Part shown: one piece after another, positions 4,545 to 15,378 of the stretch
Position numbering within the stretch: position 1 is the stretch's first letter
Layout: each line of letters opens with the position of its first letter
DNA from: Alphaproteobacteria bacterium
GTDB lineage: Bacteria > Pseudomonadota > Alphaproteobacteria > Geminicoccales > Geminicoccaceae
NCBI GenBank assembly: GCA_030431615.1
Contig: JAUIID010000028.1
Coordinates: forward strand, 1-36,621
Direction: 5' to 3'
DNA: 36,621 bases
Position numbers and translations under genes: made by a program
The notes under the pieces: model-generated
Seen by the model: the letters and a program-made list of their open reading frames with translations, nothing else
What the model was told of the DNA's origin: nothing
The model's database searches: none

Positions 4545-4865
4545 TCATGCGGTGACCAGACATTTTGCGCAGGCCGTCAATTCGGTCAGGAGCGTTTCGA
4601 TCTTGGCGGAGGGAGGATTGCCTTGCTCGGCTGCCGCCTCCAGCGCCGCCGCAGTCTCCGCCAGAGCGAGGAATCCAAACGTGCCGGCAGAGCCGGCAAG
4701 CTGATGCGCCTCGCGCCTCAGCTCGTCCAGTTGGCCGCTCCCTCGCCCGGCCCGCCATGCTGTGGCGAGCTCGTGGATGCACGCGAGGCGATCCTGGGTG
4801 CGGGCCGCGAAGCGTTCCCTGAGCTCAGCCAGCGGATCAAGTGGACGAAGGGACGACGGCGGCAT
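4545..4865 (-). CDS. Hpt-domain histidine phosphotransfer protein
   Basis: A 106-residue stand-alone Hpt protein, which relays phosphate between receiver domains. The signature REAHQLAGSAGTFGF sits at 51-65, so His54 is the phospho-acceptor, followed by the expected helical LALAETAAALEAAAE. The rest is a four-helix bundle by pattern. ATG at 4865 lies inside the 3' end of the response regulator gene (29-bp overlap), so the two are probably translated together. Together with the receiver-kinase hybrid upstream it makes a complete His-Asp-His-Asp relay set, but the final output regulator is not in the window. Confidence 0.88.
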   Translation of the reverse strand: MPPSSLRPLDPLAELRERFAARTQDRLACIHELATAWRAGRGSGQLDELRREAHQLAGSAGTFGFLALAETAAALEAAAEQGNPPSAKIETLLTELTACAKCLVTA

Positions 4866-5283
4866 GAAGTAGCCTCAGCTGTTGCGCCAATGTGAGGGGA
4901 TCGAAGGGCTTGGCGATGACGCCCAGTGCACCACGTGCCAGATAGTCGGCGCGGTGATGGGGCTGGATCCTGGCAGTCATGAAGACCACCGGAACCAGGC
5001 GATTGCGCGGATCGAGGCGCAGCCGTGCCAGGGTCTCGAGGCCGTCCATGCCCGGCATCATGACGTCGAGGAGCACGAGATCCGGATCGATCGCCGGCAA
5101 TGCTTCGAGCGCTGCGTGACCACAGTCGCAGCAGGTGACGGCGAGCCCGCCGACGTGGCCCAGAGCCAGTTCGATCACGGCACGAATATCGGGATCATCC
5201 TCCACGGCGACCACCCGGGACATTGCCCGGCGCTGACCGCTGTCCCCTGTCGATCGAAATCGATTGGCCGTCGGGCCCAGCAT
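4837..5283 (-). CDS. Single-domain response regulator (CheY-like receiver)
   Basis: A 148-residue frame with one receiver domain and no output domain. The acidic pair is ED-D at 28-30, the phospho-acceptor Asp73 is in LVLLDVMMPGMDG, the switch Thr103 is in VVFMTAR and Lys125 is in IAKPFDP, so all catalytic residues are present. The start is uncertain. ATG at 5283 is 3 nt after the kinase stop but gives a 20-residue tail of odd composition; ATG at 5223 begins MSRVVAVEDD, right at the first beta strand. Neither has a good ribosome site. The gene overlaps the Hpt gene by 29 bp and probably acts as a phosphate shuttle in the same relay. Confidence 0.88.
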   Translation of the reverse strand: MLGPTANRFRSTGDSGQRRAMSRVVAVEDDPDIRAVIELALGHVGGLAVTCCDCGHAALEALPAIDPDLVLLDVMMPGMDGLETLARLRLDPRNRLVPVVFMTARIQPHHRADYLARGALGVIAKPFDPLTLAQQLRLLHAAVVPSST

Positions 5284-5286
5284 GGC

Positions 5287-6771
5287 TCAGGCGGCCAACG
5301 GCAGGCCGATGCGCAGGCACCCGCCATTCTTGCGTTCGGCTCCGAGTTCCACGACGCCTCCCTGCCCATCGATCAGACGCTTGACGATAGCGAGGCCGAG
5401 ACCACCGCCGCAGCCATGCCTCGAAGCAGCGCTGTCGGCATGCCCGGGTCTTTCGAGAACGGTGGCGACCGGCATGGCGTGAAAGCAGAACCCGCTATGG
5501 GCGACCTCGATCCAGGCGCGATCGGCGATGGCCCGAATGGCGAACTCGACCGAGCCGCCGACCGGCGAGGATTTGATGGCTTCGGCGATCAGACAGTCCA
5601 TGGCCTGGCGCAGCTTTGCAGCATCGCAAAGACAGTCGAAGTCTGTCGAAGGCGTGAGCACCTGCATTCTGACGCCGGCCGCGTCGGCTGCCTCGCGATG
5701 GGCGGCGACGGTGACACTCAGAAAGGAAGCGAGGGAAAAGCGGGCAGGCACAAACGGGACGACACCACTCTCCAGACGATCCAGATCGAGCAGGTTGTCG
5801 ATCATCCGGGCGAGGCGCTCGGCATTTCGCCCGGCGCTTTCCAGCAACTGCACCGCCGCATCGGATGGCGGGTGATCCAGAAGACCGGGGAGGAGGCCGA
5901 GCGAACCGCGGATGGCGGTCAGCGGCGTCCGCAACTCATGGCCGAGAACGGAGACGATCTCGTCCTTCAGACGCTCGAGCCTGCCATGCTCGGATTCGTC
6001 GCGCAAAATGCCGAAGGCCCCTTCCATCTTGCCCCGCTTGTCGCGGCGAACCCGGGCTTCGAAGATCAGGTCGACAGGCGCATCGCCGGGGCGCAACGCC
6101 TCGTTGTCGAACAGGCGGCAGGCGACGCTGTCCTTGCCCGCCTGGAGCGCCCGCCAACAATGCCGGAGCCTGAGCCGCGCCGTCCTGGGCAAGTTCCGCA
6201 GGAGCTCACCCAACGGCCAGAACGAGGCCACCGGAGTGTGGCCGAGCAGCCGCGCTGCCTCGCCCGAGAGCTCCACTGTGGGTCTGCCGGCCCGCAAGCT
6301 CCAATGCCCGAGCCGAGCAAGCCTCTGGGCCTCCTCGAGCTGTTGTTCACGCTCGTGCAATGCCGTGACCAGGCGCTGGCGTTCGACCGCTGTAGTCAGC
6401 ATTCGGCCCAAGAGATGTGGAGCAAGCCCACCCTTGGGGAGGAAATCCTCGGCGCCCCGGAGAATGGCCGCACGGGCAAACAACCGGTCATCGGCGCGTT
6501 GGCCGCTGAGCACGATGATTGCGGCACTCCCGGCCGACTCCCGCATCGTGGCCAGCAGATCGACGCCGCGTGCATCCGGCAGCAGGAGATCCAGGAGCAC
6601 CGCGTCGAAGCGCTGTTCGACGAGCGCCCCCAGGGCCGCATCGAGACGCTGCACCCATGTGACGGAGATGTCGGCACAGTCCCGAAGCTGCTCGTGAACC
6701 AGACGCGCGTCCGCGGCATTGTCTTCGATCAGCAGCACGCTGATTCCATTGTCGCCGTACGGCTCGTGCAT
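5287..6771 (-). CDS. Receiver-histidine kinase hybrid with degenerate ATP-binding motifs
   Basis: A 494-residue soluble protein with no membrane segment. Residues 10-125 are an intact receiver (Glu16/Asp17, phospho-Asp61 in VLLDLLLPD, Ser89, Lys113). A coiled segment and a PAS-like middle (about 130-260) follow. HisKA is at 268-335 with phospho-His278 in VLGHELRTPLTAI. The C-terminal HATPase region is recognisable but odd. The N box reads MDCLIAEAIKSSP, with Glu397 where Asn is expected, and the G1 box reads VAHSGFCF where DxGxG is expected. The G2 box GGGLGLAIVKRL at 455-466 remains. The protein may therefore accept phosphate but not bind ATP. It heads the kinase-regulator-Hpt operon (3-nt gap to the next gene). 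A CtrA-type box lies 70 bp upstream. Confidence 0.9.
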   Translation of the reverse strand: MHEPYGDNGISVLLIEDNAADARLVHEQLRDCADISVTWVQRLDAALGALVEQRFDAVLLDLLLPDARGVDLLATMRESAGSAAIIVLSGQRADDRLFARAAILRGAEDFLPKGGLAPHLLGRMLTTAVERQRLVTALHEREQQLEEAQRLARLGHWSLRAGRPTVELSGEAARLLGHTPVASFWPLGELLRNLPRTARLRLRHCWRALQAGKDSVACRLFDNEALRPGDAPVDLIFEARVRRDKRGKMEGAFGILRDESEHGRLERLKDEIVSVLGHELRTPLTAIRGSLGLLPGLLDHPPSDAAVQLLESAGRNAERLARMIDNLLDLDRLESGVVPFVPARFSLASFLSVTVAAHREAADAAGVRMQVLTPSTDFDCLCDAAKLRQAMDCLIAEAIKSSPVGGSVEFAIRAIADRAWIEVAHSGFCFHAMPVATVLERPGHADSAASRHGCGGGLGLAIVKRLIDGQGGVVELGAERKNGGCLRIGLPLAA

Positions 6772-6840
6772 CGGGACTCGCGCAGCAGATGGCGTGGCAG
6801 GACGGAGCGGCGGCTCCTCAGGGAAGTTGCCATGCCGGGC

Positions 6841-6855
6841 TTAATGTATGGTTAA
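6841..6855 (-). promoter_or_regulatory. Perfect CtrA-type binding box upstream of the histidine kinase gene
   Basis: The minus strand reads TTAACCATACATTAA, exactly TTAA-N7-TTAA, and contains TTAACCAT, the half-site form reported for rhizobial CtrA. It lies 70 bp upstream of the kinase ATG and about 120 bp downstream of the terminase stop, in a GC-rich setting where such an AT-rich symmetric word is unlikely by chance. CtrA is the alphaproteobacterial cell-cycle/motility regulator. That CtrA binds here is inference. Confidence 0.65.
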
Positions 6856-6972: not shown

Positions 6973-8490
6973 TCAGATGGCGAACTCGGTGTTCGCGTGA
7001 AAGCCACTTCCGGTCGACCGCGATCCGGCGGCGCCGGCGTATCGCCTGCTGCCGACTGTCACGGGCTGCTCGAGTATGGCACCGCTGACGGCATCGAGCC
7101 CGTCATCGCGGGCGGAGGAATCCGGCGCCCACTCGTGCATCTCCTCGAAAAAGCCGCTCTCGGCAACCGACTGGTGAACCAGAAGATGACTGGCGGCGAG
7201 GATCGGATCGAGCGCCTGCAGGATCCGCTCTGCCTTGTTTCTGGTCGAGTGGCGCTCGACCAGGGTCAACCTGGATGCCCTGCCCCTCAGCTCCCGCCGC
7301 ACGAGGCCCGGCAGGAAGCGCCCGATACCGTTCGTCTCGATGAACAGCCGGGTCTGATGCAGCGACTCTGCGAATGCGATGGCTTGCCGCACCAACTGGG
7401 TCGCTTCGTCCGACTCCTCCAGGTCCTTGGGCGAGAACTGCAGGTAGCGAAGCGCGTGCAGCCAGTATTTGCCCTGCCGATCGATCAGCACGACGGCAAT
7501 GGCACTGCGATCACCACGACCAGGCCGTCCATAGGCCGGATCCCACCAGCAGACGCTGGAAACCATCGGCGTGTCACCGATCGAGAGTGTCAGTTCCCTG
7601 TTTGCGAAAGCGGCGTGCAACGGATCGGCGTAGGTGACCAACCGGCCCGGATCGAGCTTGGCGGCGCGTGCCGGAGTCGGCTCCAGCAGCATCTGGCTGC
7701 GAAACCGGTGTGGACCCGCCTCGCGTCGCAGAGCGTCGATGGTGGCCGCTGGAAAGCGCTCTGGCCATGCACTCTCACCATGTTGGTTCACCAGTGGAAT
7801 GCACAGTCTACGAAAGCCCTCCAGAAATGCCTGTTCCTCTCCGATCTCGGCGCGTGGCGAATTGGCATATATCGAATAGTAGCTATGGGGTGTTCCCACA
7901 TAAATCTGGAAACCAGTTGGCACCAGCACGAAGTTGATCTCGGCCAAACGTTGGCGCAGCAGGCTACGATTGAGTGGCGTACTGCACGTCCTCGGCACTT
8001 CGACATCATCGCAAATGATGACGTCGGCGCGAGTGCCGGTGAAATTTCCGGCAATACCGCGGGCCAGCACGGACGGATCGCGGTGATCGCGGCTACGCCG
8101 AACCGTGAACTGACTGGACGTCCACAGCTCCGCACGGGGAGGCACCAGATGCCTCGCCGCCGGATGCATCTCAATTATTCTTCGAATGCTCCGGCTCATT
8201 TTGTCGGCGAGCGCCTGATCGGCAGAAAGTATCAGAATCCTGAGATTTGGGTTATAAGTCAACAGCCAAGACACGAACAACCCAACGATTGTCGACTTTC
8301 CCGCATCTCGAAATACCATTAGCAGCAAACGACTACAACCGTTTACCCAACCCTCCTGCAACCACTGAGCAACGGTAAGATGAATTTCAGGCGTATTGAG
8401 TTGTTGGATCTTGTTCCATAGAACGACGAACTCGGGGAAGCTGATGAACTTCTTCGTCTTGAGTTCATTTTTTGGCAAGAGCGTTTCCAC
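6973..8490 (-). CDS. Phage terminase large subunit (T7-like)
   Basis: A 505-residue two-domain packaging motor. The N-terminal ATPase has an altered Walker A, FRDAGKST at 60-67 (Lys65), and Walker B VIICDD at 157-162. The C-terminal RNase-H-type nuclease has CWWDPAYG at 314-321 (Asp317), LFIETNG further on, and a final acidic DDGLDAVSG. All key residues are present, so the protein could be active. The start is a GTG at 8490 with a weak ribosome site. The gene is last in the virion operon, 40 nt after the gp14-like gene, the position terminase holds in T7-like phages. No small terminase subunit is found beside it. The first 250 bp or so are less GC-rich than the rest. Confidence 0.92.
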   Translation of the reverse strand: METLLPKNELKTKKFISFPEFVVLWNKIQQLNTPEIHLTVAQWLQEGWVNGCSRLLLMVFRDAGKSTIVGLFVSWLLTYNPNLRILILSADQALADKMSRSIRRIIEMHPAARHLVPPRAELWTSSQFTVRRSRDHRDPSVLARGIAGNFTGTRADVIICDDVEVPRTCSTPLNRSLLRQRLAEINFVLVPTGFQIYVGTPHSYYSIYANSPRAEIGEEQAFLEGFRRLCIPLVNQHGESAWPERFPAATIDALRREAGPHRFRSQMLLEPTPARAAKLDPGRLVTYADPLHAAFANRELTLSIGDTPMVSSVCWWDPAYGRPGRGDRSAIAVVLIDRQGKYWLHALRYLQFSPKDLEESDEATQLVRQAIAFAESLHQTRLFIETNGIGRFLPGLVRRELRGRASRLTLVERHSTRNKAERILQALDPILAASHLLVHQSVAESGFFEEMHEWAPDSSARDDGLDAVSGAILEQPVTVGSRRYAGAAGSRSTGSGFHANTEFAI

Positions 8491-8530
8491 AATCTACTCA
8501 GCTAGCGCCATCATTTCACGATTGGCATGA

Positions 8531-8965
8531 TTACCCGAGCAGGCTCCGCCGACTGCCACTGGCGCCGGCATTTCCGGCAATCGACCCCAGGAGCCGATTG
8601 GTCGTCGTCAGCAGGTTGTTGCTTCGACGGGCGCCGAATGTTTCATTGATCTCCTTTACTTTCTGGGCGGCAGCTTCCCGGCGGGCCCTGACGTCGAGCT
8701 CAGCTTCGCGCTCGAGGCCACGCAGGATCGCATCAATTGATCCACCGGTCGTTGCCGTGCCGGCGGCCCCGGCGCGCACGCGTTCGCTGGCGAGCCGGCG
8801 GCGCAGGGCATCGGCCTGCAACCTTTCGTTTTCCGTGCTCGACCGCATGATCGCGGCGATCTGGCGGTCGCGCTCCGCCTTGGCTTCCTTGCTCTCCTGT
8901 CGCATTGCCTGCTGGCCGAGCGCGAGGTTCAGCCCGACGCCGGCAAGACTGTTCATTCCACCCAT
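8531..8965 (-). CDS. Small phage virion protein, coiled-coil (possible T7 gp14-like internal protein)
   Basis: A 144-residue protein beginning MGGMNSLAGVGLNLALGQQA, then a long charged, probably coiled-coil stretch (about 20-60: QESKEAKAERDRQIAAIM onward), then AGTATTGGSIDAILRGLEREA and a second charged helix. The Gly/Thr-rich hinge between helices resembles gp14-type internal core proteins of podoviruses, which help eject DNA; this is pattern memory, not a search. ATG at 8965 overlaps the preceding stop as TGATG, which fixes the start; an upstream extension to 9067 lies inside the neighbour and is not favoured. Gp15- and gp16-like partners that normally follow are missing here. Confidence 0.7.
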   Translation of the reverse strand: MGGMNSLAGVGLNLALGQQAMRQESKEAKAERDRQIAAIMRSSTENERLQADALRRRLASERVRAGAAGTATTGGSIDAILRGLEREAELDVRARREAAAQKVKEINETFGARRSNNLLTTTNRLLGSIAGNAGASGSRRSLLG

Positions 8966-10902
8966 CAGAGGTTCACCTTTGCTTCGACAGTGACCGATAG
9001 AAGGCTCAAGGCTCCGGGAGCCTGTTGTGTGATCCGCCACGGCGGGTATTGAAGGCCTCGCCGCCAACCCATGGCCCGCACACTGACATCCCGCGTGCGA
9101 ACAACGTCGTTCGTTCCGCCGAGATCGAGCGCGCGGAAACCCGAGCCTGCATCCAGTGTGAGACTGTCTGTCAGCCCGATGCGCAGGCTGATCCTGACGG
9201 GACGGTAGGGGGTATCCGGCGCCGCACCACGCGCATTGAAGTCCAGCGGCAACCCTTCGATCGCGTGCACGAAAGGCAGGCCGACTGTCAGCGTTGTCGC
9301 GGGGTGATCAAGGATCAGTTCGTCCCCGGCGAGTTCCATCTCGCCCAGCGCCACGCCGTCAGCGAATACAAAGCATCGCTGCCCAGCCCACTGGGCAAGT
9401 CCGCTCCAGCTTACCTTCGGCGTTGTGCTCGTGAACGTCTGTTGACTGTCCAGGATGGCGGCGTCCGCGACGCGTTCGAGGCAAAGTCCCGATTGGCGTT
9501 CGACAAGCATCGTCAAGGCGCCTTCATGCCCTGCGAGTGCCAGCAGGCTTCCCTCGGTCTCCAGCAAGCTCCACGCCACAACATTGCTGTTGCGATCGAT
9601 GGTGACAGCACAGCATTTGCCGTCACCGCGCGCGATCCAGAGCCCGCGACGGGCCTGATCGAAGACCAGATCCCGTGGATCAGCCATCAGATGGCGCGAC
9701 AGAACGGCGATATCGGCGGCCTGATAGGCCTGCTCGGTGTCGGTGAAGAGGAACTCGCGCAGATCCCGGCCGCTCGCGCCTACGAAGAGCGTCGCTCCGT
9801 CCACGTCCACCGGCGCCAGCTGCCGCTCGGCAGGCGAGCCGACCCTGGTCTGCAGCTCGACCCTCGCCGCCCCAGGCGTCAGCGGAAATCCGCTGACGGT
9901 CCACTCACCGGCCGTCGTGAAGACCTGCAGGACACGACCCGAAAACAGTTGCCGTATTTCATGCTGACGCTCGGCCGCAATGCGGAAAGCGAGCGCGCCG
10001 TCATCGATCCCGTCGGCGAAGTCAAAGTCGAACGGTCTCCCCGTTCTGGAGAACCACAAATAGTCGGGCCGGCCGCGACAGCCACCGAGAACCAGGCGGT
10101 CCTGATGCATCGCCGCACAGATCGGCCAGCCGTGCACCTCGGAGAACGCCTGCTCGTCCCAGTTCGTTGTCTGCAGCTCGTCCTCGAGAGGCTCGAGTGG
10201 TCTGGCGTAAGCTCTCTTGCCGTCAGAGCCCGGAACAGACGCCGAGACCAAGAGCTGACGCCCCTTGATGCGGAGGACAGTCCCGTGGTGGTCCGGCGTA
10301 AATACCGGCGCTAATGTCCGGAGCTCCACGGTGGTGCTTCTCGCCCCTGAACCGGTAGGATCGCCGCCAGACACGCGAAATGGCTGAATGGTGACGTCCG
10401 AGGGTGCAAACCGGGCGAATGGGCAATGCCGTCGCTGGTCGTTTTCATCGGCGTGTACCTCGGCGAACTTCAGTACCTCGATCGACCACGTACCCGCCGA
10501 GTCGCGACGCAAGAGGCGTGGCTGGTAGGCCGGATGGCAGACCATTATTGCCTCGTCCACCAAGGCAAAGTCTAGTTGGCGGAGTTCCTCACCGGCCCAT
10601 AATGCATCCTCGACGATCGTCTGGCGCAACAGTGAACCACTGACGACATGGACGGCGCGGTCACCGAAGATCAGCAGATCGCTGAGCCCGTTGCGTTCGA
10701 ACGAGAACAGCCTCTTGCCATCGGGCACCTGGATGAGAAGCTCGGTCCCGGGACGCCGGGCCACGCCGCCGGTCCTTTGCACGATGACGTTCGTGAGTCT
10801 GGCCGCGCCCTCCTCGTACACACGAAGATCCATGCGCCCGAACAACGCCGGGTCGATTTCGCCGGAGGTAAAGCTCGACTTGGTAGCGACAATGCGAGTC
10901 AT
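8965..10902 (-). CDS. Tail tubular protein B-like (T7 gp12-type nozzle)
   Basis: A 645-residue protein whose N-terminus KSSFTSGEIDPALFGRMDL followed by NVIVQRTGGVARRPGTEL is the hallmark of podoviral nozzle proteins (T7 gp12 type), which form the distal tail tube. The rest is beta-rich, in line with the propeller of that family: repeated short strands such as LLIFGDRAVHVV, RLVLGGCRGRPDYLWFSR and LQVFTTAGEWTVSG. The length is somewhat below T7 gp12. ATG at 10902 overlaps the gp11-like stop as ATGA, so start and coupling are clear. The frame is intact. Family placement rests on N-terminal text and gene order. Confidence 0.82.
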   Translation of the reverse strand: MTRIVATKSSFTSGEIDPALFGRMDLRVYEEGAARLTNVIVQRTGGVARRPGTELLIQVPDGKRLFSFERNGLSDLLIFGDRAVHVVSGSLLRQTIVEDALWAGEELRQLDFALVDEAIMVCHPAYQPRLLRRDSAGTWSIEVLKFAEVHADENDQRRHCPFARFAPSDVTIQPFRVSGGDPTGSGARSTTVELRTLAPVFTPDHHGTVLRIKGRQLLVSASVPGSDGKRAYARPLEPLEDELQTTNWDEQAFSEVHGWPICAAMHQDRLVLGGCRGRPDYLWFSRTGRPFDFDFADGIDDGALAFRIAAERQHEIRQLFSGRVLQVFTTAGEWTVSGFPLTPGAARVELQTRVGSPAERQLAPVDVDGATLFVGASGRDLREFLFTDTEQAYQAADIAVLSRHLMADPRDLVFDQARRGLWIARGDGKCCAVTIDRNSNVVAWSLLETEGSLLALAGHEGALTMLVERQSGLCLERVADAAILDSQQTFTSTTPKVSWSGLAQWAGQRCFVFADGVALGEMELAGDELILDHPATTLTVGLPFVHAIEGLPLDFNARGAAPDTPYRPVRISLRIGLTDSLTLDAGSGFRALDLGGTNDVVRTRDVSVRAMGWRRGLQYPPWRITQQAPGALSLLSVTVEAKVNL

Positions 10903-11471
10903 CGGTTGCGCGCCATGATCAGCGTGAAGTCATCGACGGCCCGCGGCGTCGCCTGCTGACTGTCCGCGAGCTTCGCGACCTTGAGCTCGGCGGCTGCTAT
11001 CCTGTGTAACACCTCGGACCGGCTGGTTCCCTCGGTAAGCGGCAGGCAGAATTCCGCCGCCAGTCGCGCGAGGAACGCCTGGACGAAAAAGGGCGGGAAC
11101 TCGGACGTGGAAGGGCGTCGCTGGTAGCTCAGGAAGATGCGATCGGCATCGGCGAACAGGCGGGTTCCAGCGACGTGGTAAATCAATCCGGCAGCGCGGG
11201 AATCGGCGCCGGCGGAGATCGTGCGCAAGGCGTCCGGGGGCAGCGCGAAGGCACGGGAGAAGCCCGCCTGCGGCTCCTCGTCGAGCCCCGCGAGTTCGTC
11301 CTGCGCCAGCGTGAAATGCCAGGGATGTGAGGTGATCAGCCCGCGCAGCGTCAGTTCGTACAGTCGCTTCGCGACGTCGGCTTCGGCTGTCTCGTCCTCG
11401 AAGGAGGTGATGACGGCTGCGCCGATCTTGACGAGTGCAGCGGAACAAAGCTCGACATCGGTGAGCGGCAT
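10899..11471 (-). CDS. Tail tubular protein A-like adaptor (T7 gp11-type)
   Basis: A 190-residue protein (from MPLTDVELCSAALVKIGA) of the kind that forms the ring joining portal and nozzle in T7-like virions. Helical N-terminus with the typical CSAALVKIGA, then AKRLYELTLRGLITSHPWHFT, a segment I associate with gp11-type adaptors (Tyr-Glu, His-Pro-Trp), then a strand-rich middle and a helical tail ending LIMARNR. ATG at 11471 is preferred over a GTG at 11507, although neither has a strong ribosome site. It is ATGA-coupled to the nozzle gene. A strong hairpin at 11546-11575 separates it from the capsid-side genes. Confidence 0.8.
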   Translation of the reverse strand: MPLTDVELCSAALVKIGAAVITSFEDETAEADVAKRLYELTLRGLITSHPWHFTLAQDELAGLDEEPQAGFSRAFALPPDALRTISAGADSRAAGLIYHVAGTRLFADADRIFLSYQRRPSTSEFPPFFVQAFLARLAAEFCLPLTEGTSRSEVLHRIAAAELKVAKLADSQQATPRAVDDFTLIMARNR

Positions 11472-11545
11472 GGCGTTCGTTCGCTTCTGGCTGGTGTCCG
11501 ATGGCACGACGGGCGTCGTTGCCGTGACACGGGATGACGGCAGAG

Positions 11546-11575
11546 GCGGGCCGGCGCCGGCTGGCGCCGGCCCGC
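11546..11575. other. Perfect 13-bp inverted repeat (GC-rich hairpin) within the virion operon
   Basis: Arms GCGGGCCGGCGCC and GGCGCCGGCCCGC with a 4-nt loop, between the small structural gene (stop 11617 side upstream) and the gp11-like gene. No T-run follows on either strand, so it is not a standard intrinsic terminator. It could be an attenuator, an RNA processing or stability element between highly expressed capsid genes and tail genes, or a Rho-linked pause. Confidence 0.6.
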
Positions 11576-11616
11576 AACGCAGCGGTCAATGAAACGAGGA
11601 TCAGTCGCGTCGACGA

Positions 11617-11886
11617 CTAGTCGGTGTCGATGGCGCCGAACTGCGTGACATTGCTGACGTTCACCACACCGCTGGTGTTGGAGAGGACGACGACGACACC
11701 ATGCGTCGGGATGTCGTCCAGGCCGGCATTGACGAACACGAAGTCGCCGGGCCGCAACATCTTGTTCGCATCATTGAAGTAACCGACGTTGTCGACTTCA
11801 GCGATGAGATCATCGGTCCGATAATGCCAAAGGGTGAAACCATTGGCATAGGAAATGGCACTCAGGTTGCTGGGCGAATAGGCCAT
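11617..11886 (-). CDS. Small phage structural protein next to capsid (unknown function)
   Basis: An 89-residue protein beginning MAYSPSNLSAISYANGFTLW, with RPGDFVFVNAG in the middle and a beta-rich end. Position directly after the capsid gene, a ribosome site GGAG 8 nt before the ATG, and a 2-nt gap to the capsid stop suggest high-level co-expression. A head decoration protein or head-tail component would fit, but I do not recognise a named family, so function is inference from position. A GTG at 11892 is a less likely start. Confidence 0.7.
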   Translation of the reverse strand: MAYSPSNLSAISYANGFTLWHYRTDDLIAEVDNVGYFNDANKMLRPGDFVFVNAGLDDIPTHGVVVVLSNTSGVVNVSNVTQFGAIDTD

Positions 11887-11888
11887 CT

Positions 11889-12707
11889 TCACATCTCCAG
11901 GCAGGGCATCTTCACGACGCCGTAGTCGTCGATCAGAACCGCACCCTGCGACATCGAGTTGGAAATGAAATGCGCCGCACGATCACCGTGCCAGGTGATG
12001 TCGGTCTTGACGTCCTGACCGATCGCATGACCGACGGCACTCTTGTGGAACCAGAAGCAGTTCCGCACATTGTCGACCTCGGTCAGCCCCGAATGCGGCA
12101 TCCAGAGCGTGCCGAGCCAGACCTTCGCCTGCGTCCCGCGCCAGGGAAGCTGCTCGTCCCCGACGAACTCGGCATTGGCGAACTCGGCGACGTTGAGCAG
12201 ATCCGACCACTGCTTCCAGCCGATCACTGCGTAGCGCTGGCCGTCGTCCGGCACATCGGCCGAACCCAGCATCTCGAACGCTTCCAGCGCCTTGTCCTTC
12301 GTCAGGCCGGTGGCGGGATCGCCGGCCGACTGCGTGGCGTCGGCAAGGGCCGAAATGATGAGCTCGTCGGTCTTGCGTCCCAGCGCGAACGCGCCGGCAT
12401 TGGCGAGGACCTGGCGCTCGTCCAGGTTCGTCTTGAGCTCGTCGAGCTGGTCGACCCACTCACCAGCGTAGTAGTCCACCAGCGTGGCCTCTACCGCACT
12501 GAAGTCGACATTCATGACTGGCACCATCCCGTGCCGCGCCTTGGTCGAAGCCGCTCCCTTGCCGACCTTCTGGAAGATCGTCGAGCTGCCGCGGACCCCG
12601 TTCTTGACTCGCACGGTGGAGCGCAGCTTCGAACCCTGCCGCTGGTAGGCTTCATGTACTTCGCGCTCGAACTGCTTCGAGAACGCCTGATCAATGGTAA
12701 TGGACAT
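11889..12707 (-). CDS. Major capsid protein (podovirus type)
   Basis: A 272-residue protein placed between scaffold and tail-tube genes, where T7-like phages carry the coat protein. It starts MSITIDQAFSKQFEREVHEA; the N-terminal arm is helical. The middle segment DERQVLANAGAFALGRKTDE and AVIGWKQWSDLL, followed by HGDRAAHFISNSMSQGAVLI at the C-terminus, fit podoviral HK97-fold coat proteins as I know them: a DNA-binding-free core with late acidic and aromatic strands. A clear ribosome site AAGGTG lies about 5 nt before the ATG. The 130-bp leader upstream is the largest gap inside the operon and may hold its own promoter or processing site, though I could not define one. Confidence 0.82.
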   Translation of the reverse strand: MSITIDQAFSKQFEREVHEAYQRQGSKLRSTVRVKNGVRGSSTIFQKVGKGAASTKARHGMVPVMNVDFSAVEATLVDYYAGEWVDQLDELKTNLDERQVLANAGAFALGRKTDELIISALADATQSAGDPATGLTKDKALEAFEMLGSADVPDDGQRYAVIGWKQWSDLLNVAEFANAEFVGDEQLPWRGTQAKVWLGTLWMPHSGLTEVDNVRNCFWFHKSAVGHAIGQDVKTDITWHGDRAAHFISNSMSQGAVLIDDYGVVKMPCLEM

Positions 12708-12837
12708 CGCGCACCTTGGGTTTCTGTAGTCGCGATAAGGGGGGAGCCAGCAGTTGTCCGAACGGGCCGCCGGCTCAGACGAATTCGCGGCGCCAGGGGG
12801 CCGGAGAGGTTGTCCCCGGGCGTCGCCCGTCAGCGAA

Positions 12838-13635
12838 TCAGTCGGGATAGAGGTTGCGATAACCTTCCGTGACTCGTCTGACGTAAGTCGGATCGCGATC
12901 GCGCCAGTAGCGGGGATCGCGAATCATCTCTTGCAGGCTCTCTTCACTGGCGCCCATCTGGCCCGAGCCGGCCATGCCGATGATGTCGGGCTCGGCCTTG
13001 CGCATCATGTCGTGGAGAGCCAGCACACCTTCGAAGCTGGTGGAGAGCGCACTGCAGACCTCGCCAGGGAGGTTCGCCTCGGCATAGGCCTTGATCTGCC
13101 TGGCGGTGGTGCGCCACGCCTCCTCACCGCCGAAATGCTCCTTGAGCCGATCGACCTGGCGGGTTGCCGCGAGCTCGCTCGACGCCTCGCTGACGATCGG
13201 CAGGATATGCTCCGCCGCGAGGTCGTAGACGAGCTGCGCCTGGCGTTGCGTGAAACCGGCTTCGTGGAGCTTCTGGTTCACGGCCGGATCGGGCTCGATC
13301 AGAGGATGTGACGGCGTCAGCGCATACTGATCGGGGGCCTTTGGACGACCGAGCGCTTCCCAGAGGCGATCCATCCCGGCGGTATCGTCATCGTTCTCGG
13401 GCTTCGGCAAGGACCGGCCCAGCCTGCGCTCCAGTTCGAGATACGATTGAAGGAGGGCATCCGTTCGAATACCGCCGGTCTCGCTGTCCCAGAACTTCTC
13501 CGGCACGCTTTCGGGTCGCTCGACCGTCGGCGCCGAAGGCTGAGGCGTCAGCTCGAGCTCCGGCGTGTCGGCGCCGGAGTCATCTGCCTCGCTGTGGTGA
13601 GGATCGGAATCCGTCAGGAAGTCGCTTGTCTGCAT
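12838..13635 (-). CDS. Capsid assembly scaffolding protein (T7 gp9-type)
   Basis: A 265-residue acidic protein. The first 45 residues are Asp/Glu/Pro/Ser-rich and probably disordered, followed by VPEKFWDSETGGIRTDALLQ and SYLELERRLGRSLPKP, a block common to podoviral scaffold proteins. The C-terminal half is helical (QAQLVYDLAAEHILPIV, then basic/aromatic RDPRYWRDRDPTYVRRV), as expected for a coat-binding tail. It lies directly before the capsid gene and 2 nt after the Bbp19-like gene. Assignment relies on composition, the conserved N-terminal block and gene order. Confidence 0.82.
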   Translation of the reverse strand: MQTSDFLTDSDPHHSEADDSGADTPELELTPQPSAPTVERPESVPEKFWDSETGGIRTDALLQSYLELERRLGRSLPKPENDDDTAGMDRLWEALGRPKAPDQYALTPSHPLIEPDPAVNQKLHEAGFTQRQAQLVYDLAAEHILPIVSEASSELAATRQVDRLKEHFGGEEAWRTTARQIKAYAEANLPGEVCSALSTSFEGVLALHDMMRKAEPDIIGMAGSGQMGASEESLQEMIRDPRYWRDRDPTYVRRVTEGYRNLYPD

Positions 13636-13637
13636 CT

Positions 13638-13895
13638 TCAGCCTCTCGGACGCACCAATCGCGTCAAATAGTCGATCGCGCTTCTCTGCCCTTCGACGTG
13701 TCTGAGCAGTGAATCGCTGGCATCGGGCGGCACTCGCCGATCGACGAACACCGATCGCAGGTGCCGCAACAGAAGATCGCCATCGGGACCGGTGAAACAG
13801 GCACCTGCTGCCCTGTTCAGAGGTTCATCCCTGGTGGTGTCCGACGGCGGTGAGTCGAACCACGACCACCCCTTCGAAAGGTCGTCTTCAGGCAT
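13638..13895 (-). CDS. Bbp19-like small phage protein
   Basis: An 85-residue protein from MPEDDLSKGWSWFDS. The segment ACFTGPDGDLLLRHLRSVFV followed by an acidic turn and RHVEGQRSAIDYLTRLV resembles the small Bbp19-type phage domain (aromatic-Thr/Ser-x-x-Gly, then helix; final helix with EGxRxxxxYL). The ATG at 13895 is fixed by a strong GGAGG 9 nt upstream, inside the portal gene, with an 8-bp overlap. A longer frame to 14144 is antisense-like text and is rejected. Role in the virion is unknown; it sits between portal and scaffold. Confidence 0.72.
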   Translation of the reverse strand: MPEDDLSKGWSWFDSPPSDTTRDEPLNRAAGACFTGPDGDLLLRHLRSVFVDRRVPPDASDSLLRHVEGQRSAIDYLTRLVRPRG

Positions 13896-15378
13896 CCAGA
13901 TCCCCCTCCATGCCGAAAGTCTGGCGAAGCACGAGGCTGTTGGGCACGCCGAGTGTTTCCGCGAGCCAGCTCGCCGTTTCGCCGAGATCGGCGAACTGCC
14001 GCGGGTCACCCCCGATCTTGGCAATCGTCTCCAGCCACAGGATGACGTTGCGGACTTCCTCGCGGGCCTGGATGCGCGCGAGCGGCGACCGGTAGAGAAT
14101 CTCCGCAATCGTTCCATCCAGAGCGACGCCGGGAACCTCGCCACGCCGCCGGAGAATGGCCAGCGACCGCTGCAGCAGTGGCGTCAGCAACTCGGCCTGC
14201 AGGCGGCCGTAGATTGCGCCGAGCAGTCGCGTCATCTCTGCGCTGCGTTCCAGAACCTCGGTCGCCGTCATGCGGCGATCATTGACGGGCGCAAGCCGGT
14301 CGGCGAGCAACGTGTGCCGGATGCGCGAGCGCAGATCACTGAGGACCAGCTCCGACACGTCGAATCGACCTGGCGCCTGAAGAGGGGTGAGACCGGCAGA
14401 GCCCACCGCTTTCGGAATGATGCTCCCAGGGGCAAGCCGAATATTCGCGGGATTGAGAACACCGTCATCCTCGGCCAGCCAGATGCCTGTGGCGGCGATC
14501 GACGCGTTCTTGAGTACAAGCTCGACAACCTTGTTCGCCGTCTTGATGTCGGGCAGCGCCGTCATGACCGGCGAGCGGCCATAGAGCTCGCTGGTGCCCT
14601 TCATCCACCGGAACGTCAGGAACGGCGATTGCTCGAACAGCCCTTCAGACAGTATCAGCGGAGACTGGACAAAATCACGCTGCGCAGGAAGGATCGCCTG
14701 ATACTTGAACTGCGAGCCGATACTGGCGACCGCCTCGACGAGCTCCAGCCTGACACCATTCTCATCGGCCTGCGGCGCATGAATCTCGCTCAGCTGATGG
14801 CAATGGCCGAACCGCGACCGCAGTTGCGCCAGCGAGACTGTGGTCGTCCTGTAATGCCGATTGATCGCGCCGTTCGCGTCACCGTCGATGTAGATTTCGG
14901 CAGCAGGAATCGCCGTGAACTGGAATGCCGAACTGGAACCGATCGGCGCCTCCTCAAAAAGAAGCGTTGCAGTTCCCGTCGTCACAAGGTCCAGAAAGCA
15001 CTGGTGGATCTCGACCGCAAAATTCGACCGCTCGAAATGGCCCTGGAGACGCAGGGCGGCAGCGTCGAGGACGGCAGCGAGCGCTTCGACGTCAATCGGG
15101 TCGACATCGTGGCCAGGCTTGAGACCGAACCACCGCGACCAGGGAGGTGTCAGCTCGGCGAGGAGGCTCGCTGCCAGCTGCTCGACGGCGTCCGGGGCCG
15201 TGCCGTCGAACAGGCGCTCGGCATGGTTCGTGCCAGCCAGGAAAGACTGTGCCAGACCATGCCCCCGCATCGGCAGGGCGTAGGCGTAACAGTCGCGCCA
15301 CAAAGTCTCCCAAGGAAGGCGACGTTCCCGGGCAGTCGCGAATCCCGCGAGTAGCGCAGGAATTGACGATCGGGTCAT
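13888..15378 (-). CDS. Portal (head-to-tail connector) protein, T7 gp8-type
   Basis: A 496-residue protein near the usual length of podoviral portals. Characteristic text includes LPWETLWRDCYAYALPMRG and AERLFDGTAPDAVEQLAASL near the N-terminus (the helix that senses head filling in this group), SELYGRSPVMTALPDIKTAN in the stem region, and NDRRMTATEVLERSAEMTRL in the wing/crown region. This last is highly conserved in podoviral connectors. Ribosome site GGAG 7 nt before the ATG. A near-consensus promoter lies just upstream (15411-15439). The stop is overlapped by the next gene. Confidence 0.9.
   Translation of the reverse strand: MTRSSIPALLAGFATARERRLPWETLWRDCYAYALPMRGHGLAQSFLAGTNHAERLFDGTAPDAVEQLAASLLAELTPPWSRWFGLKPGHDVDPIDVEALAAVLDAAALRLQGHFERSNFAVEIHQCFLDLVTTGTATLLFEEAPIGSSSAFQFTAIPAAEIYIDGDANGAINRHYRTTTVSLAQLRSRFGHCHQLSEIHAPQADENGVRLELVEAVASIGSQFKYQAILPAQRDFVQSPLILSEGLFEQSPFLTFRWMKGTSELYGRSPVMTALPDIKTANKVVELVLKNASIAATGIWLAEDDGVLNPANIRLAPGSIIPKAVGSAGLTPLQAPGRFDVSELVLSDLRSRIRHTLLADRLAPVNDRRMTATEVLERSAEMTRLLGAIYGRLQAELLTPLLQRSLAILRRRGEVPGVALDGTIAEILYRSPLARIQAREEVRNVILWLETIAKIGGDPRQFADLGETASWLAETLGVPNSLVLRQTFGMEGDLDA

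Follow-up and report, generated by a model that had tools for sequence, protein, structure and literature searches.

Loss of the ATP-binding residues in a receiver-first histidine kinase, a probable His-Asp phosphotransferase or phosphatase supplied by another kinase

The window, that is, the whole stretch of 36,621 nucleotides that was analyzed, encodes on its minus strand a predicted pseudokinase of 494 aa (5287..6771), in which a receiver is followed by a PAS-like, a HisKA and an HATPase_c domain, as defined by the open reading frame, Pfam and the orthologues. Sequence comparisons suggest, with a probability of about 0.58, that this protein is a receiver-controlled histidine kinase (Rec-HK) reduced to a His-Asp phosphotransferase and/or phosphatase supplied by another kinase. 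The ancestor would have been a receiver-controlled histidine kinase whose gene was accompanied by those for a single-domain regulator of its own and an Hpt protein. Since the Mg-ATP-binding residues were lost from the CA domain, phospho-His would no longer be made from ATP. A phosphorylated receiver, either that of the operon regulator or the protein's own after charging by another kinase, would donate a phosphoryl group to His278, and this group would then be passed on or released as phosphate. The window protein may in this way link other kinases to the regulator and Hpt protein of its operon, as a relay or a drain. By analogy with known systems, we infer all three elements of this proposal, namely the autokinase inactivity, the phosphotransfer or phosphatase activity and the external kinase.

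The receiver domain comprises residues 8-130 (6382..6750, minus strand, as for all features of the protein; Pfam PF00072), with a Response_reg match of 54 bits over residues 12-114, and its phospho-acceptor, Asp61 (6589-6591), was invariant in nine orthologues. The AlphaFold secondary structure gives the linker that follows (residues 131-262, 5986..6381) a PAS-like fold and a long helix (residues 118-152). With Pfam, the intact orthologue L047 gave a PAS_4 match of 24 bits, just above the cut-off. The HisKA/DHp domain (residues 263-332, 5776..5985; PF00512) gave a match of 57 bits over residues 269-336 and carries the phospho-acceptor His278 (5938-5940) in the motif HELRTPL, this His being invariant in all orthologues. 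The degenerate CA/HATPase_c domain (residues 350-494, 5290..5724; PF02518) was matched over residues 383-493 with only 36 bits, the cut-off being 26.4. On the plus strand, antisense to the kinase operon, there is also an open frame of 657 aa (4882-6855), which is probably an effect of the high G+C content, because the genes supported by Pfam lie on the minus strand there.

The boxes of the CA domain were aligned pairwise with two histidine kinase structures, 5c93 (title 'Histidine kinase with ATP') and 4u7n. In the N box, Glu397 (5581..5583; IAEAIKSSP vs MNNAIKYSP) took the place of the Mg-binding Asn, and the G1 motif DxGxG was replaced by HSGFC (residues 425-429, 5485..5499), with His425 and Cys429 aligned to the Asp and the last Gly, respectively (HSGFCF vs DQGLGI). 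The G2 box, GGGLGLAIV (residues 455-463, 5383..5409), which reads on as GGGLGLAIVK, was kept in the window protein and is mostly gone in its two congeners. The residues His278, Glu279 and Thr282 of HELRTPL were all intact, and so were E16, D17, D61, S89 and K113 of the receiver. The preliminary description had reported an intact HisKA domain, phospho-His278 and receiver, a normal G2 motif and the loss of the N and G1 boxes, and each of these observations was confirmed. From these alignments, the window protein is predicted to lack normal ATP binding, and we advise that its gene should not be annotated as a functional hybrid sensor kinase.

Judged by the alignments, the loss of both boxes exceeds chance, since, among the other HATPase_c domains of the window's genome, the N-box Asn was found in 26 of the 26 alignable ones and the G1 Asp in 25 of them. 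This baseline consisted of 30 loci, 26 of them alignable over both boxes (two resemble GyrB and MutL), and was counted by eye. Another HATPase_c protein of the genome, L268, had an Asn for the G1 Asp (TNQGEP) and retained the N-box Asn.

Orthologues were found in ten species of four genera by the family search, and the order search comprised the same 31 genomes. A contig scan returned only generic REC-HisKA proteins of other groups, and no orthologues. The residue tables hold nine orthologues, the tenth (G023) being omitted as it is split across two contigs. The N, G1 and G2 boxes were present in G003, G017 and G014, and the intact genera, g2 and g13, had normal versions of all three and HATPase_c matches of 107-113 bits. 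The N and G1 residues were gone in six orthologues, belonging to the genus of the window (g1: the window protein, G001 and G002) and to a second degenerate genus (g15: G016, G026 and G028). The position of the Mg-binding Asn was occupied by E, R and R in g1 and by A, Q and H in g15, and that of the G1 Asp by H, P and P and by A, A and A, although the alignment of these columns is only approximate in the copies with the strongest decay. The HATPase_c match reached 21.7 bits in G026 and 13.9 in G016, and was undetectable with Pfam in G001, G002 and G028; both congeners have thus lost more of the CA domain than the window copy. The N and G1 boxes would have been lost first and G2 later.

The preliminary description had proposed a search for the same substitutions in orthologues, and the five degenerate copies found besides the window protein, in two genera, support its reading of a probable pseudokinase. 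Because the losses are common to these copies, a sequencing error or frameshift was rejected as their origin. The HisKA match was above the cut-off in every orthologue (40-74 bits, PF00512), and the phospho-His, the Thr of HxxxT and the receiver residues E16, D17, D61 and K113 were invariant in the nine alignable ones. G001 carries HALRTPL for HELRTPL, so that the acidic residue after the His is gone and the Thr stays. In HisKA proteins, the acidic residue next to the His is needed for the kinase reaction (autophosphorylation).

The window protein might still have kinase function, either because its nucleotide site works in an unusual way or because an intact kinase, paired with it in a heterodimer, phosphorylates His278 in trans. 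Its HisKA domain is intact and K400, G427 and the G2 box are still present in the alignment; furthermore, weak or unusual nucleotide binding by its CA domain is possible, because the model keeps the predicted fold together with the G2 box. Nevertheless, the Mg-binding Asn and the adenine-contacting Asp are both gone, and a conserved function cannot rest on a domain that is unrecognisable in other orthologues. Hence, an active kinase appears very improbable, with the heterodimer as a possible exception.

Constraint was compared by codon position, and dN/dS is not given because the synonymous sites are far diverged. In the CA domain, the divergence at codon positions 1/2/3 was 0.36/0.30/0.50 between G001 and G002, 0.36/0.41/0.52 between G016 and G026, and 0.14/0.15/0.40 in the intact pair. 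Corresponding values for the receiver were 0.23/0.15/0.44 (G001-G002) and 0.20/0.18/0.31 (G016-G026). The constraint on the CA domain is therefore relaxed in the degenerate pairs, not absent, the receiver and the DHp domain are constrained, and the intact pair constrains the CA domain. The relaxed CA domain and the greater domain loss in the sister genomes would also be expected if the entire system were being lost and the intact motifs were merely slower to disappear. The chance of such a decay is very small, as the receiver, the DHp domain, the regulator and the Hpt protein are constrained across two lineages and the gene trio described below stays together. The reading frames are open in all orthologues, which argues against decay and, with the constrained receiver and DHp domain, led to the rejection of a pseudogene.

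An AlphaFold model of the window protein (13 sequences, mean pLDDT 79) comprised the receiver, the PAS-like domain, the hairpin of the DHp domain and a CA fold whose lid (residues 442-455) was of low confidence. The Foldseek matches were the Rec-HK LvrB, RetS, DivL and ordinary kinases; LvrB chains were among the best, and RetS and DivL were among the best for the DHp-CA region. RetS and DivL are proteins of the histidine kinase fold that act as regulators. The structural match to them, and a CA fold predicted to persist, would agree with an allosteric scaffold of the same kind, which binds and controls another kinase or regulator without any chemistry at His278. DivL, however, has lost its His, whereas that of the window protein is invariant in nine orthologues. 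Moreover, a scaffold based on the CA domain would not be the conserved part, because Pfam does not recognise this domain in G001 and G002, and the model of G002 shows it as partly unfolded: the predicted remnant, of low confidence, has no lid or G2 helix and only part of the sheet (AlphaFold, mean pLDDT 70). A scaffold is accordingly considered highly doubtful.

The kinase gene is followed on the minus strand by a gene for a single-domain response regulator of 148 aa (4837..5283; PF00072, 86.7 bits), starting 3 bases past the kinase stop codon, and by one for an Hpt protein of 106 aa (HQLAGSAGTFGF; 4545..4865; PF01627, 48 bits), which shares 29 bases with the regulator gene. At each of the eight further loci examined, the orthologue of the regulator adjoined the kinase gene, and the motif around the Hpt His lay downstream, with only a very short match in two of them. 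The Hpt matches of G016 and G026 are short but contain the motif HELAGGAGSFG. The gene order kinase, regulator, Hpt is common to the other loci. Beside the kinase gene, a glutamate dehydrogenase, a Clp ATPase, an IMP dehydrogenase or a dipeptidase is encoded in the relatives, and a phage terminase gene adjoins the operon in the window. As the neighbours differ between loci, the trio of kinase, regulator and Hpt is the unit. The claim of the preliminary description that the relay is still in use is consequently supported at the sequence level by the conserved His and Asp sites and by a trio that is kept in differing neighbourhoods. The operon encodes no output domain. The large genes upstream of the operon in the relatives were considered as partner kinases and rejected, being unrelated metabolic or chaperone genes.

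Directly upstream of the operon, on the same strand, positions 6973-15378 hold late genes of a T7-like phage: the terminase large subunit, two tail proteins, the major head protein and a head-tail adaptor. Some 200 bases separate the terminase gene from the start of the operon downstream of it, and the neighbours checked in the relatives were non-phage genes. Searches of the window for known RNA families found none.

If the window protein is a phosphotransferase or drain fed by another kinase, its possible donors would include the many further intact HATPase_c proteins that its genome encodes. A second phosphotransferase is not obviously needed in an operon that already has an Hpt protein. The EnvZ variant N347D, in which only the Mg-binding Asn is lost, reportedly undergoes reverse phosphotransfer from OmpR (title of Dutta and Inouye 1996, cited in PMC3868531). 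PhyK with its G1 or G2 box mutated still relays phosphate from MrrA to PhyR (PMC5964349), and PhyT, whose ATPase domain is naturally degenerate, acts as a phosphotransferase (PMC5898713). A pure phosphatase or sink, gated by its own receiver, would dephosphorylate only the operon regulator charged by another kinase, without any forward transfer. This activity would be consistent with the Thr of HExxT, kept in all orthologues and even in the Glu-less G001; the Thr of HxxxT has been tied to phosphatase activity and the conserved His itself has been implicated in dephosphorylation by HisKA kinases (PMC5727384). It would also be consistent with EnvZ N347D, described as kinase-negative and phosphatase-positive (Dutta and Inouye 1996, title). 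Nevertheless, the conserved Hpt protein and receiver suggest a multistep relay, and phosphatase action as the sole function seems unlikely.

A second type of large histidine kinase, of 905-1180 aa, was observed at L240 (313-4235, G001:C5) and L242 (5950-9016, G020), with 34% identity to the window protein over DHp-CA. These kinases adjoin a regulator with 46-48% identity to that of the operon, and the operon may have its source, or a partner, in a kinase of this type.

By its architecture, with a receiver N-terminal to the DHp and CA domains (Pfam order REC-HisKA-HATPase_c and structure model), the window protein is a Rec-HK (PMC13269768) in which the N and G1 residues of the ATP-binding CA domain are lost. 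It resembles LvrB in having the receiver first and the DHp and CA domains after it, a description that the orthologues G003, G017 and G014 fit fully. It differs in the PAS-like domain between the receiver and the DHp domain and in lacking the catalytic residues required by an autophosphorylating kinase such as LvrB. A search of open-access papers found no description of a kinase-dead Rec-HK.

In its proposed working, the window protein is similar to PhyT of Sphingomonas and PhyK of Caulobacter, which are His phosphotransferases derived from kinases, have no autokinase activity and have a single-domain regulator as partner (PMC5898713, PMC5964349); the degenerate ATPase domain is shared with PhyT. 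For PhyT, however, a periplasmic domain and the motif HRxxN have been described, and PhyK has been described as HisKA2, whereas the window protein has a fused receiver and the motif HELRTP, and its DHp domain, as in all orthologues, is HisKA (PF00512) and not of the HisKA_2/HWE type. No link is known between its system and PhyR. In ChpT, a DHp protein, the CA domain is functionally degenerate (PMC9981736). A DHp domain with a phospho-acceptor His and a degenerate CA domain, as expected of a kinase-derived His phosphotransferase, was found in the window protein, which shares this pair with ChpT and Spo0B and differs from them in its receiver and PAS-like domains and in having intact relatives that persist in the same bacterial family. 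Membership of the ChpT family was rejected, as PF10090 had no match in the window protein (E up to 1) or in eight orthologues (E up to 0.1). By analogy, the protein would thus resemble ChpT, Spo0B and PhyT in its way of working, not in sequence family. Elsewhere in G023, G028, G014 and G016, PF10090 matches above the cut-off were detected, which may belong to a separate ChpT-like protein.

The receiver-first Rec-HK architecture, the intact kinases in other genera, the graded decay and the probable occurrence of two losses were missing from the preliminary description. In a gyrB tree, g15 grouped with g13 and g2 (g13+g15 98/93; all three 100/100), and g1 was placed elsewhere. The gene tree of kinase and regulator supported each genus and left the order among genera open, and a single clade of degenerate copies was not rejected by the AU test (p 0.41). 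Given the gyrB tree, and provided that inheritance was vertical, the catalytic domain was probably lost at least twice; by itself, the gene tree is compatible with one loss.

ChpT and Spo0B, dimeric phosphotransferases, are thought to be derived from kinases, and intermediates are hard to find. Tentatively, this family may offer a natural series in which a receiver-controlled kinase became a kinase-dead His-Asp phosphotransferase at least two times, with intact, half-decayed and fully decayed forms extant. If so, its operons would repeatedly have handed their phosphate supply to an outside kinase. All three stages are found within a single bacterial family and share their regulator and Hpt partners, and the order of loss and the change of function are therefore directly testable.

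The gene rpoB, present in 25 of the 28 genomes searched, was not found in the draft G000, probably owing to a gap in assembly or binning. The window's genome is a draft with an estimated contamination of about 5%; in the gene tree, the window copy grouped with its two congeners at 100/100, which speaks for the contig belonging to this genome.
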